Assembly: GCA_018241725.1 (NCBI GenBank)
Contig: JAFEDI010000077.1
Coordinates: 62,001 to 126,000, forward strand
Origin: Pseudomonadota bacterium
GTDB lineage: Bacteria; Pseudomonadota; Gammaproteobacteria; Burkholderiales; Rhodocyclaceae
Length of the DNA: 64,000 nt
Reading direction: 5' to 3'
Shown piece by piece: positions 19,067-47,506 of this stretch; position 1 is the first letter of the stretch; each line of letters opens with the position of its first letter. Position numbers and translations under genes: made by a program. The notes beneath the pieces are model-generated. The model was not told the DNA's origin. It saw nothing but the letters and a program-made list of their open reading frames with translations, and searched no databases.

Positions 19067-19309
19067 TCAGCTCGCAGCCTCGTTCTGTTCCTGCTGGATG
19101 TTGACGGGACGGGCCGGCACGACGGTGGAAATGGCGTGCTTATAGACCATCTGGGTCACCGTGTTCTTCAGGAGAACAACATACTGGTCGAAAGACTCGA
19201 CCTGCCCCTGCAGCTTGATGCCGTTCACGAGATAGATCGAAACGGGGACGTGTTCACGACGCAGGGCGTTGAGAAATGGATCTTGCAGGAGTTGCCCCTT
19301 ATTGCTCAT
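19067..19309 (-). CDS. hfq: RNA chaperone Hfq
   Basis: This 80-aa Sm-like protein forms the hexameric ring that pairs small RNAs with mRNAs. Sm1 is seen as [20 protein letters not shown] and [20 protein letters not shown]; Sm2 holds the YKHAIST signature that builds the uridine-binding pore. The C-terminal tail is short (about 12 residues), as common in betaproteobacteria. The small RNA candidate at 28615-28722 would be a natural client. Confidence 0.98.
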
Positions 19310-28614: not shown

Positions 28615-28642
28615 AAAAAAAAAGGGTGCGCATCGCGCACCC
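28615..28642 (-). terminator. intrinsic terminator of the candidate small RNA
   Basis: Arms of eight base pairs (GGGTGCGC at 28624-28631 and GCGCACCC at 28635-28642) close a three-base loop, and nine T residues follow in the minus direction (28623-28615). It would also end any read-through from ccoI-ccoS. Confidence 0.85.
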
Positions 28643-28722
28643 CCAACCCCAACAGAGAGACTTCAGCCTGGACCGTGATCCAGGAGGCGCCCGGTATTAC
28701 TTGTTGTTTGCGCCTTGAACTT
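28615..28722 (-). ncRNA. candidate FNR/Anr-regulated small RNA
   Basis: A short transcription unit with no credible ORF is read on the minus strand. It has an FNR-type palindrome at 28758-28771, a -10-like CATACT (28735-28730) at the position expected for a class II promoter, a predicted start near 28722, a hairpin with arms CCTGGA/TCCAGG (28667-28684), and a strong terminator with nine T residues (28642-28615). The predicted RNA is about 108 nt and contains a CCUCC stretch that could pair with ribosome-binding sites. Its architecture is like E. coli FnrS and Neisseria AniS, but I see no sequence similarity to either. It lies just downstream of ccoS. No expression evidence is available. Confidence 0.6.
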
Positions 28723-28729
28723 GGGACGA

Positions 28730-28771
28730 AGTATGAAAGAACTCTGCGGAAGCAGTCTTGACCTGCGTCAA
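28730..28771 (-). promoter_or_regulatory. FNR/Anr box and class II promoter of the candidate small RNA
   Basis: TTGACCTGCGTCAA at 28758-28771 is a TTGAC-N4-GTCAA palindrome, one base per half from the FNR consensus TTGAT-N4-ATCAA. Its centre is 41.5 bp from the predicted start near 28723, and CATACT (4 of 6 to TATAAT) sits at -12 to -7. In the plus direction no -10 lies at the right distance, so the site points at the minus strand. Confidence 0.62.
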
Positions 28772-28808: not shown

Positions 28809-29000
28809 TCATGCCCCTTCCTTGTCCTTGTCGACAGACCCACGCGGCGCCGGCTGCGGCGTATCGTCGTCACTGACAACCCGGTAGCCCGGCCCCTCGA
28901 GATCGTCGAACTGACCGCTGCGAACGGACCACCAGAAGATCATCCCGATCAGGAAAACGAGCAGCACGGACATAGGAATCAGCAGGTACAGGCTTTCCAT
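28809..29000 (-). CDS. ccoS: cbb3-type cytochrome oxidase assembly protein CcoS
   Basis: This 63-aa single-pass membrane protein begins MESLYLLIPMSVLLVFLIG and continues FWWSVRSGQFDDLEGPGYRV, the defining CcoS sequence. It is needed for cofactor insertion into cbb3 oxidase. The ATG at 29000 gives the family N-terminus. It lies 13 bp after ccoI. The oxidase structural genes (ccoNOQP) are not in the window. Confidence 0.93.
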   Translation of the reverse strand: MESLYLLIPMSVLLVFLIGMIFWWSVRSGQFDDLEGPGYRVVSDDDTPQPAPRGSVDKDKEGA

Positions 29001-29013
29001 GGCACAAAGGCTT

Positions 29014-31476
29014 TCAGTTGGCCTTCCGCCGTTGAAGACGAAGGGCATTCAAGACGACGAACAAGGAACTGGCGGACATGCCGATGCCAGCCATCCAGGG
29101 CGTCACAAGGCCGGACATGGCCAGTGGCACCGCAGTGAAATTGTAGGCGAAGGACCACCACAGGTTCTGCCGGATGATGCGCAGCGCCCGCCGCGAGAGC
29201 CCGACACCGTCTGCCAGCGCCCCCAGGCGCGCGCCGAGCAGCACGATGTCCGCCTGGTTGCGGGCCAGGTCCGTGCCGCCGCCCATGGCGATCGACACCT
29301 GGGCCTGGGCCAGCACCGGCGCGTCGTTCACGCCATCGCCGACCATTGCCACCACCTTACCGCCATGCTGCAGCCGGGTTAGCTCGACATGTTTGTCCTC
29401 CGGCGTCATGCCGCCAACCGCACGGGAAACGCCCAGACGCGTGCCGAGCTCGACAACCGTGGCCGGCGTGTCCCCACTGAAGATCGACAGGTCGATCCCC
29501 TGGCCGCGCAAGGCCTCAAAGGTGGCAGGACAATCCTCCCGCAGCCCATCACTGAGCGCAAAGCCCGCAATCCAGCCGGACGACGACCCCAAGGCCACGA
29601 CGGTCCGACCCGAGCGTTCGTCCTCCAGCAGGGCCGTGGGAATCGGCGTACCCGTCAGTTCGGCCACGAAGGCGGGGCGGCCGATCCGATGGAGCACACC
29701 AGCAAGCTCGCCAGCCACCCCCTGTCCGGTCGTGGCCCTGATGGCCGCGACCGCAGCCCCTGGAGCCGTCGCGCTTGCCAACCGGATGGCCGTTGCAACG
29801 GGATGCTCAGCCCCCTGCTCCAGCCCCGCCGCCACGGCTAGAGCCTCTTGCTCGGAGAGCTCGCCGAGCAGACGTACCTGCTCGACCCGCATCGCCCCAT
29901 AAGTCAGGGTGCCCGTCTTGTCGAAGACAAAATGCTGCGCCTTTGCCAGTGCCTCGACCGCGTGGCCACGTGTCACCAGCACCCCCATGCGCGCCAACGC
30001 GTCGGTCGCTACCGTCAGAGCCACCGGGGTGGCCAGGGACAGCGCGCACGGGCAGCTGACCACCAGCACCGACACGAAGACCCACAGCGCCCGATCCGGA
30101 TCGAACCACCACCAGCCGGCCGCGGTGAGCGTCGCCAGGACCAGCAACACGATGATGAACCAGGCCGCCACCTGGTCGGCCTGCTGCACCACCCGCGGCT
30201 TCTCGGCCGATGCGCGTTCCATCAGCTGGCGGATCGCCGCCAGGCGGGTATGTTCGCCGGTGCGGGTGACGCGCACGCACAGCGGACTGGTGACGTTGAT
30301 GCTGCCCCCCGTCACCTCATTGCCGGGCACCTTGGGCACCGGCCTGCTCTCACCGGTCAGTAGCGCCTCATTAGCTTCGCTGCGCCCCTCGACGACTACG
30401 CCGTCCGCCGGCACCGCTTCGCCCGGCTTGACGCGGATCACATCCCCCGTCAACAGCTGGGATACCGGAACCTTCTCACCATCCGGAGACGGGTAGACCG
30501 GCAGGCGCTCGGCGAAGGCCGGCAAGGCCTTGCCCATCTCCTCGACGCCGCGCACCGCCTTCTGGCGCGCCAGCATTTCCACGTAGCGGCCACACAGCAG
30601 GAAGAAGACGAACATCGTCACCGAATCGAAATACACCTCACCCTTGCCGGTCACCGTCGCCCAGCAACTGGCCAGGAAGGCCGCCCCTACCCCCAGCGCA
30701 ACCGGCACATCCATGCCCAGCCGGCGCAGGCGGATGTCGCGGATCGCGTGGCTGAAGAACGGCGCGGCGGAATACAGCACGACGGGCGCGGTCAGGATCA
30801 GGCTCGCCCAGCGCATCAGCTGCTCGATGTCTGCGGTCATGTCACCCGCCTCGGCGATGTACACCGGGAAGGCATACATCATGACCTGCATCATGCCGAA
30901 GCCGGCCACGAACAAGCGCCACAGGGCGGAGCGGCGCTCCCTCTGGGAAATCTGCTCGGAGCGCGCCGCATCATAGGGATAGGCGCGGTAGCCGATCGCG
31001 TGAATGGCCGCCAGAATATCGGACAGCTTGATGCGCCGCTCATCCCAGCGCACGCGTGCACGGCGCGTCGCGTAGTTGATGTCCACCGCTGTCACGCCGG
31101 GCTGGTGGGCCACATGTTGCTCGTTCAGCCAGATGCAGGCGGCGCAAGTGATACCTTCGAGGATCAGCGCCGCCTCGCGTTCGTGCTCACCGATGGGCTT
31201 GACGAAACCCTGCTGAAAATCCGGGTGGTCGAACAGCCCAAGGTCCTTCAGCTCGTCCGGCATCGCCTCGCGGGCCTGCTCGGGCATCGCGTCACGGCGC
31301 TTGTAGTAATCGACGAGGCCGCTGCTGACGATGGACTCGGCCACCGCCTGGCAGCCGGTACAGCACATGTGGTGCTGAACGCCCTCGATATCGACGGGGA
31401 GATCTACATCTGCGGGAATGGGGAGCCCGCAGTGGTAGCAATCATGCTCGGGCAAAACAGGGGAAGGGGACGACAA
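29014..31476 (-). CDS. ccoI: copper-translocating P-type ATPase CcoI (FixI)
   Basis: This 820-aa P1B-type ATPase loads copper for cbb3 oxidase assembly. An N-terminal cysteine-rich metal-binding region (CYHC, MCCTGC) precedes an HMA domain with GITCAACIWLNEQH. The transporter core has the CPC motif in SCPCALSLATP, phosphorylated D in FDKTGTLT, SEPP-like actuator LTGESRPV and hinge GDGVNDAPVL. The apparent start is TTG at 31476; no in-frame ATG or GTG starts closer to the family N-terminus, and GAGG lies just upstream. It is followed by ccoS, the usual partner. Confidence 0.94.
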   Translation of the reverse strand: MSSPSPVLPEHDCYHCGLPIPADVDLPVDIEGVQHHMCCTGCQAVAESIVSSGLVDYYKRRDAMPEQAREAMPDELKDLGLFDHPDFQQGFVKPIGEHEREAALILEGITCAACIWLNEQHVAHQPGVTAVDINYATRRARVRWDERRIKLSDILAAIHAIGYRAYPYDAARSEQISQRERRSALWRLFVAGFGMMQVMMYAFPVYIAEAGDMTADIEQLMRWASLILTAPVVLYSAAPFFSHAIRDIRLRRLGMDVPVALGVGAAFLASCWATVTGKGEVYFDSVTMFVFFLLCGRYVEMLARQKAVRGVEEMGKALPAFAERLPVYPSPDGEKVPVSQLLTGDVIRVKPGEAVPADGVVVEGRSEANEALLTGESRPVPKVPGNEVTGGSINVTSPLCVRVTRTGEHTRLAAIRQLMERASAEKPRVVQQADQVAAWFIIVLLVLATLTAAGWWWFDPDRALWVFVSVLVVSCPCALSLATPVALTVATDALARMGVLVTRGHAVEALAKAQHFVFDKTGTLTYGAMRVEQVRLLGELSEQEALAVAAGLEQGAEHPVATAIRLASATAPGAAVAAIRATTGQGVAGELAGVLHRIGRPAFVAELTGTPIPTALLEDERSGRTVVALGSSSGWIAGFALSDGLREDCPATFEALRGQGIDLSIFSGDTPATVVELGTRLGVSRAVGGMTPEDKHVELTRLQHGGKVVAMVGDGVNDAPVLAQAQVSIAMGGGTDLARNQADIVLLGARLGALADGVGLSRRALRIIRQNLWWSFAYNFTAVPLAMSGLVTPWMAGIGMSASSLFVVLNALRLQRRKAN

Positions 31477-46918: not shown

Positions 46919-47506
46919 ATGGCTCATACCCTGCCCGAACTGCCCTTCGCCAAGAACGCCCTGGCTCCCCACATTTCCGAAGAAACCTTCGAATACCACT
47001 ACGGCAAGCACCACCAAGCCTATGTGACCAACCTGAACAACCTCATCCCGGGCACCGAGTACGAAAACCTGTCCGTCGAAGAGACCTTCCTGAAGGCCCC
47101 TGCCGGCGGCATCTACAACAACGCCGCCCAGGTCTGGAACCACACCTTCTTCTGGAGCTCCCTCAAGCCGAACGGCGGCGGCGCTCCGGCTGGCGCGCTG
47201 GCTGACGCCATCAACGCCAAGTGGGGCTCCTTCGACGAGTTCAAGAAGGCCTTCCAGGCTTCCGCCGTCGGCAACTTCGGTTCCGGCTGGACCTGGCTGG
47301 TCAAGAAGGCCGACGGCTCCGTCGACATCGTCAACACCGGCGCTGCCGGCAACCCGCTGAAGAGCGGCGAAGGCAAGCCCCTGCTGACCATCGACGTGTG
47401 GGAACACGCCTACTACATCGACTACCGCAATGCCCGTCCCAAGTTCGTGGAAACCTTCCTGAACAGTCTGGCCAACTGGGACTTCGCTGCCGCCAACTTC
47501 GCCTGA
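46919..47506 (+). CDS. sodB: superoxide dismutase [Fe]
   Basis: This 195-aa iron superoxide dismutase begins MAHTLPELPFAKNALAPHIS; metal ligands lie in HYGKHHQAYV, WNHTFFW and VWEHAYYIDYRN. The GSGWTWLV and AAGNPL segments are typical of the Fe form. It is followed by a strong terminator at 47564-47608, and its promoter holds an IscR-like operator. Confidence 0.96.
   Translation: MAHTLPELPFAKNALAPHISEETFEYHYGKHHQAYVTNLNNLIPGTEYENLSVEETFLKAPAGGIYNNAAQVWNHTFFWSSLKPNGGGAPAGALADAINAKWGSFDEFKKAFQASAVGNFGSGWTWLVKKADGSVDIVNTGAAGNPLKSGEGKPLLTIDVWEHAYYIDYRNARPKFVETFLNSLANWDFAAANFA

Follow-up and report, generated by a model that had tools for sequence, protein, structure and literature searches.

A conserved family of FNR-boxed candidate small RNAs beside ccoS in Rhodocyclaceae, with complementary sites at the start codons of oxygen-linked genes

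FnrS of enterobacteria is an FNR-activated, trans-acting small RNA (sRNA) with targets in oxidative metabolism, sodB among them (PMC10993149, available sections), and AniS of Neisseria is a betaproteobacterial sRNA that is controlled by FNR and induced in anoxia (PMC4423775, in part). SorX and SorY of Rhodobacter belong to the oxidative-stress response, SorX being processed from a 3′ UTR (PMC6238624, in part), and for S17 of Bordetella and the bdhR1 'toxic sRNA' in betaproteobacteria, the accessible part of PMC11722255 describes a perfectly conserved 27-nt stretch that masks ribosome-binding sites. Here we analysed a 64-kb stretch of Rhodocyclaceae DNA (the window), on whose minus strand the initial annotation had proposed an FNR-dependent, FnrS-like sRNA. 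The element very probably encodes a trans-acting, FNR-activated sRNA that occludes ribosome-binding sites, as FnrS and AniS do.

The sequence elements of that proposal are all present on the minus strand. An FNR/Anr-type palindrome, TTGAC-N4-GTCAA (28758-28771), has its centre about 41.5 bp upstream of the predicted start, which is the class II position, and TTGAYNNNNRTCAA occurs once in the window, at this palindrome (0.13 expected). The -10 element CATACT (28735-28730, read from the sequence) occupies positions -12 to -7 given a transcription start at 28723 or 28722, and the predicted RNA of about 108 nt (28615-28722) would run from this putative promoter to an intrinsic terminator (28615-28642) composed of a perfect 8-bp stem, GGGTGCGC-GAT-GCGCACCC (28642-28624), and nine T residues (28623-28615). 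The hairpin seen earlier (28667-28684) was recovered by sequence and folding, but the account of a single hairpin was incomplete, a 5′ hairpin (28685-28715, with 28715-28710 pairing with 28690-28685) having been overlooked; the A-rich loop of the latter is a possible Hfq contact. The candidate pairing region, UCUCUCUGUUGGGGUUGGGG (28641-28660), extends at its 3′ end into the terminator stem. An FNR box at the class II position before the RNA, and an unpaired seed with an intrinsic terminator and U-run, are features looked for in FNR-dependent sRNAs, and both were found. The neighbours named initially were confirmed as well: ccoS (28809-29048, minus strand; TIGR00847, 67.6 bits) is preceded by a gene for a heavy-metal P-type ATPase (29014-31476, minus strand; TIGR01525/TIGR01511), called ccoI from its position, and hfq lies within the window (19067-19309, Pfam Hfq). 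Downstream of the RNA lies ndk (confirmed by NCBIfam), the window also contains sodB (46919-47500, plus strand, Pfam), and its genome encodes an FNR with C-x2-C-x5-C, one further Cys and an ETVSR helix (E-x-x-S-R). Taken on its own, this single sequence is weak evidence: its folding z-score is -1.56, a terminator scan found two against 1.6 expected, and no sigma-70 promoter was called by the scan's rule. Chance was excluded because the element is conserved in relatives.

A BLAST-type search with 191 bases matched 29 of 60 genomes, namely the window's own, 20 of the 22 other genomes of the same genus and 8 of 13 from other genera of Rhodocyclaceae; none of 24 from other families of the order matched. 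The similarity narrows to a core about 50 nt long, consisting of UCUCUCUGUUGGGGUUGGGG and the terminator, and core plus terminator were found in at least 119 stretches of named genomes, which among the matches listed include Azoarcus, Thauera, Aromatoleum, Dechloromonas, Azonexus, Zoogloea, Accumulibacter, Sulfuritalea, Denitromonas, Uliginosibacterium and Hydrogenophilus. Built from 37 sequences and applied with a cut-off of E <= 0.001, a covariance model of the 3′ core matched 160 of 199 sampled Rhodocyclaceae genomes in 50 of 62 genera, mostly with one copy per genome. CTCTGTTGGGGTTGGGG is unchanged in 163 of 168 unique copies, which partly reflects selection, the copies having been found by that sequence; an unpaired stretch of 18 nt is nearly invariant, the hairpins drift, and the predicted RNA length in 165 relatives has a median of 97 nt (range 68-207). 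The variable 5′ half speaks against a conserved peptide. In an order sample of 299 genomes, in-family model matches scored 66-70 bits and all others at most 35 bits, and a phylum sample of 397 genomes gave three non-family matches of 31-35 bits. Homology of the non-family matches was rejected on these scores (<=35 bits) and, for the three phylum loci, on the lack of an exact FNR palindrome. The remaining 39 of the 199 family genomes include whole genera (for example g6, g205 and g211) with neither the RNA nor complementary sites.

Consistent with the initial claim that no homologue had been described, no Rfam family reached its gathering score at the locus, and at eight further relatives' loci none did besides a tRNA; nor did literature searches in the open PubMed Central library list a paper on this RNA. 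Unlike FnrS, which gave no Rfam match at the window locus even at E 10, the RNA described here lies beside ccoS, has another pairing region and has longer complementary sites. AniS (RF02274) has in common with it a pyrimidine stretch, a G-run and a terminator, but scores 17.0 bits against a gathering score of 50 and has another seed. AniS-like loci in other families of the order (L444, L445 and L449), which are weak matches of the covariance model (L444 scores 37.6 bits as AniS against the cut-off of 50), are not beside ccoS; 173-247 nt before the core they carry exact FNR palindromes, with a small ORF between in L444. SorX (RF02784) and SorY (RF02651) have the stretch CUC(C/U)CUGUUGG before the terminator in common with the RNA (region of 28657-28651 in the window), but reach only 22.6 and 21.5 bits against gathering scores of 46.6 and 111. 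The phylum-level match L507, which has no FNR box, also shows this stretch ahead of a terminator near position 1500 (CTCTCCTGTTGGGTCTGGG), a resemblance that may reflect convergence or distant kinship. S17/bdhR1, compared by description rather than by alignment, likewise has a conserved pairing stretch over ribosome-binding sites in betaproteobacteria, but as presented in the accessible part of PMC11722255, S17 lies beside coq7, is processed and is not FNR-linked; RF02278 (bdhR1) was not among the Rfam matches at the loci examined.

The FNR box proved to be a constant companion of the RNA. Of 168 unique copies, 165 have 170 nt or more of DNA before them, and an exact TTGAY-N4-RTCAA lies within 220 nt upstream in every one of these, compared with 52 of 20,000 random 220-nt windows (0.26%) taken away from the RNA in the named loci. 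In 112 of the 165, a -10-like hexamer starts at the class II spacing, 28-29 nt beyond the centre of the box; it lies at another distance in 11 and was not found by rule in 42. Where 900 nt or more of upstream sequence is available, the genes for CcoS and the P-type ATPase precede the RNA in 137 of 140 copies (exceptions L123, L134 and L142), and a median of 12 nt separates the stop codon of ccoS from the box. The conserved block of FNR box, hairpin and terminator in relatives, for which the initial annotation had suggested a covariance search, was thus found. Since the terminator stands just past ccoS, and the box overlaps the end of ccoS in 52 of the 137, the element could be no more than the 3′ end of the ccoI-ccoS transcript, consisting of a conserved 3′ UTR and its terminator. 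This is improbable, because an FNR palindrome separates ccoS from the RNA in 165 of 165 copies, the 18-nt unpaired stretch stays almost invariant while the hairpins drift, and complementary sites occur at start codons elsewhere; the terminator may nevertheless serve both the ccoI-ccoS transcript and the sRNA. Nor do we give much credence to an FNR-controlled promoter with an attenuator of the downstream gene, here ndk. This gene does follow the RNA in 19 of 21 genus loci, but the downstream gene varies, and in seven loci of other genera (L022-L028) no ndk was found behind the RNA and ccoS remains, so that the reading is extremely unlikely.

RNAalifold predicted two 5′ hairpins and the terminator for 21 genus sequences, and in 6 of 23 predicted pairs both partners have changed without loss of pairing. 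In the 5′ hairpin, this holds for four of six predicted pairs, the sixth pair being broken in 3 of 21 sequences; in the second hairpin, two of three consensus pairs changed on both sides, one of which is broken in 6 of 21. The pairing region and the terminator are invariant in the genus and therefore uninformative on structure there, and a pseudo-stem within the seed in model R1 was disbelieved, the prediction resting on invariant columns. The covarying hairpins, together with the FNR palindrome in every one of the 165 copies, support the FNR-dependent, FnrS-like sRNA proposed at the outset.

Pairing is likely to involve UCUCUGUUGGGGUUGGGG, a nearly invariant stretch that precedes the terminator, and not CCUCC (28687-28683), the stretch initially suggested, which varies among relatives; the invariant segment is 28660-28641. 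When the core was searched with one mismatch in an order-wide sample of 399 genomes, the matches formed two groups: in Rhodocyclaceae, eight matches besides the RNA were found in 15 matching genomes, all eight antisense to start regions, and in other families there were five one-mismatch matches, one of which (L032) lies before an ATG under the rule described below. Allowing no more than one mismatch, CCCCAACCCCAACRGA was matched 296 times in the 199 family genomes. The 160 RNA-positive genomes held 294, corresponding to 140 beyond one per genome (reversed-pattern control, 29), and the 39 RNA-negative genomes, 19 of them assigned by elimination, held two (control, 6). The difference between positive and negative genomes has a Fisher p of 1.4e-8, not corrected for kinship; because the genomes are related, such p-values overstate independence.

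We inspected 80 of the 296 matches, mostly from genomes with several matches among those listed, which comprised 21 RNA copies and 59 sites; the eight sites of the order-wide sample brought the number to 67. Of the 67 sites, 50 are followed at 3-45 nt (median 12) by the ATG of an ORF of 60 aa or more, compared with 23.3% of random positions and 10 of 67 on the opposite strand, and exact-match sites obeyed this rule in 19 of 21 cases. When a Shine-Dalgarno-like tetramer was required in addition, 43 of 67 sense, 3 of 67 antisense and 6 of 332 shifted positions qualified. The 50 sites represent 36 distinct genes, nine of which recur in two to four genomes, and their median duplex energy is -34.9 kcal/mol; by a simple rule, 26 of them overlap the Shine-Dalgarno-like tetramer and the others only abut it. 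The 17 sites that fail the ATG rule include GTG starts (L321 and L322) and three 3′ UTR sites. As several of the matched leaders are generally C/A-rich and a C-rich stretch could bind another factor, the repeated CCCCAACCCCAAC might be a protein-binding site, in DNA or RNA, shared by chance rather than a pairing target. This is highly improbable, given that the sites are nearly absent from the 39 RNA-negative genomes although the reversed-pattern control is equal, that their strand and distance to the ATG are fixed, and that shuffled seeds fail on sodB (below). Pairing with the sRNA is the reading that we retain, and the data argue for a real, previously uncurated family of FNR-boxed sRNAs whose pairing code is strongly supported at the sequence level.

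Long sites are few in the genus of the window, the clear one being in the pirin leader (CCCCAACCCCAACGGAGACCATCATG), which is seen in the window's own genome and two close species (L064 and L071) and, from a pattern match alone, in a third species (G020). Other sites in the own genome were not above background, and two-mismatch sites in the genus, with counts near the reversed-pattern control, were dropped as evidence. The short pattern CCCCAACRG occurs 39 times in the own genome against 19 in the control, many of them inside genes; its occurrences before ATG are mostly ordinary Shine-Dalgarno sequence or intragenic and were not used as evidence, and the same applies to CCCAACNGAG before ATG (61 family genomes, 40 stretches read). 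Two genes at L357-L359 (G000:C2:35660-36796), which from their sequence we take to be cobalamin-biosynthesis-like, have CCCCAAC(A/G)G shortly before the ATG and could be weak targets in the own genome.

Predicted targets were identified by Pfam or NCBIfam. They comprise SodB (L335) and SodC (L338 and L342), DsrC/TusE (L343 and L347), a YfhL-type ferredoxin (L288), a 2Fe-2S protein (L301), tartrate dehydratase alpha (L058; Fumerase in L292 and L315), LytB/IspH (L289), cytochrome bd subunit I (cydA, L051), isocitrate lyase (L350), pirin (L057, own genome), Phasin_2 (L052), acyl-CoA dehydrogenase (L308), a shikimate dehydrogenase-like protein (L293), DUF2282 (L316), SelO (L295), LrgA (L320) and TctC (L356), besides a partial NifB-like protein (L280) below its cut-off and WrbA/flavodoxin-like proteins (L314 and L323) below the NCBIfam cut-offs; the scanned targets L054, L290, L306 and L325 gave no Pfam or NCBIfam match. 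Most of the recurrent predicted targets would belong to respiration, superoxide defence, Fe-S proteins and carbon-storage or TCA-side metabolism, and the AroE-like and transport targets fit no obvious theme.

Because FnrS is reported to target sodB (PMC10993149, in part), we tested sodB leaders of the family; a search of 61 genomes yielded 30 loci, 24 of them with a start by rule. Computed pairing of the seed with the leaders of 20 RNA-positive genomes averaged -22.3 kcal/mol, against -17.7 kcal/mol for 112 control leaders (p 6e-6), and none of 300 shuffled seeds reached the sodB difference (against 80 of the control leaders). The leaders of four RNA-negative genomes averaged -17.7 kcal/mol (p 0.02 against the positives). 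Two RNA-positive leaders are weak (-13.9 and -13.8 kcal/mol), and that of the window itself is modest (-21.8 kcal/mol; 13% of the controls are equally good). By computed pairing, the RNA is thus predicted to bind the leaders of oxidative genes, sodB among them, as looked for in an FnrS-like regulon, and the target common to both suggests convergence of unrelated RNAs on a single logic. It appears to be of the same kind as FnrS and AniS and new by sequence, locus and regulon.

In the mechanism that we propose, FNR with its 4Fe-4S cluster would bind the palindrome at -41.5 as oxygen falls, and transcription would begin just past ccoS and stop at the intrinsic terminator. The unpaired UCUCUCUGUUGGGGUUGGGG would pair with CCCCAACCCCAAC(A/G)GA(GA) in the 5′ leaders of target mRNAs, the duplex covering or abutting the ribosome-binding site, and the most likely outcome is translational repression in anoxic cells. 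Hfq probably takes part, as the terminator and the occurrence of hfq suggest. The targets would be mainly oxygen-, superoxide- and Fe-S-linked functions that are useless or iron-costly without oxygen. CydA is activated by FNR/Arc in other bacteria, and repression of every target is therefore not obvious. What is known of the anoxic switch of denitrifying, phosphorus-accumulating and aromatic-degrading bacteria such as Zoogloea, Thauera, Azoarcus, Aromatoleum, Dechloromonas and Accumulibacter is, to our knowledge, limited to transcription factors, and the RNA would be the oxygen-responsive sRNA of this major group, with a near-invariant seed and long sites that would make its regulon readable from genomes and open to direct testing.

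A bolder version, which we regard as possible but doubtful, is that the RNA is an independently evolved counterpart of FnrS whose near-invariant seed of about 20 nt pairs almost end to end (at least 16 nt) with oxygen, ROS and Fe-S start regions family-wide, and which some lineages titrate through sponges in the 3′ UTRs of ahpF and of a peroxiredoxin gene. No shared anti-seed was present in 20 ahpC-type 3′ regions, some frames of which were misread, and a general ahpC 3′-UTR sponge was rejected; the sponge idea draws on three loci only. In the 3′ UTR of ahpF (TIGR03140 at L305, L311 similar), an anti-seed with one mismatch stands directly before an intrinsic terminator at L305:500 (plus strand) and L311:485 (minus strand), and the 3′ UTR of a PRK15000-like peroxiredoxin gene holds an exact anti-seed immediately ahead of an intrinsic terminator at L345:500 (plus strand). 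These sites are possible 3′-UTR sponges of the sRNA, through which peroxide stress would, if the bolder version is true, lift the anoxic repression.
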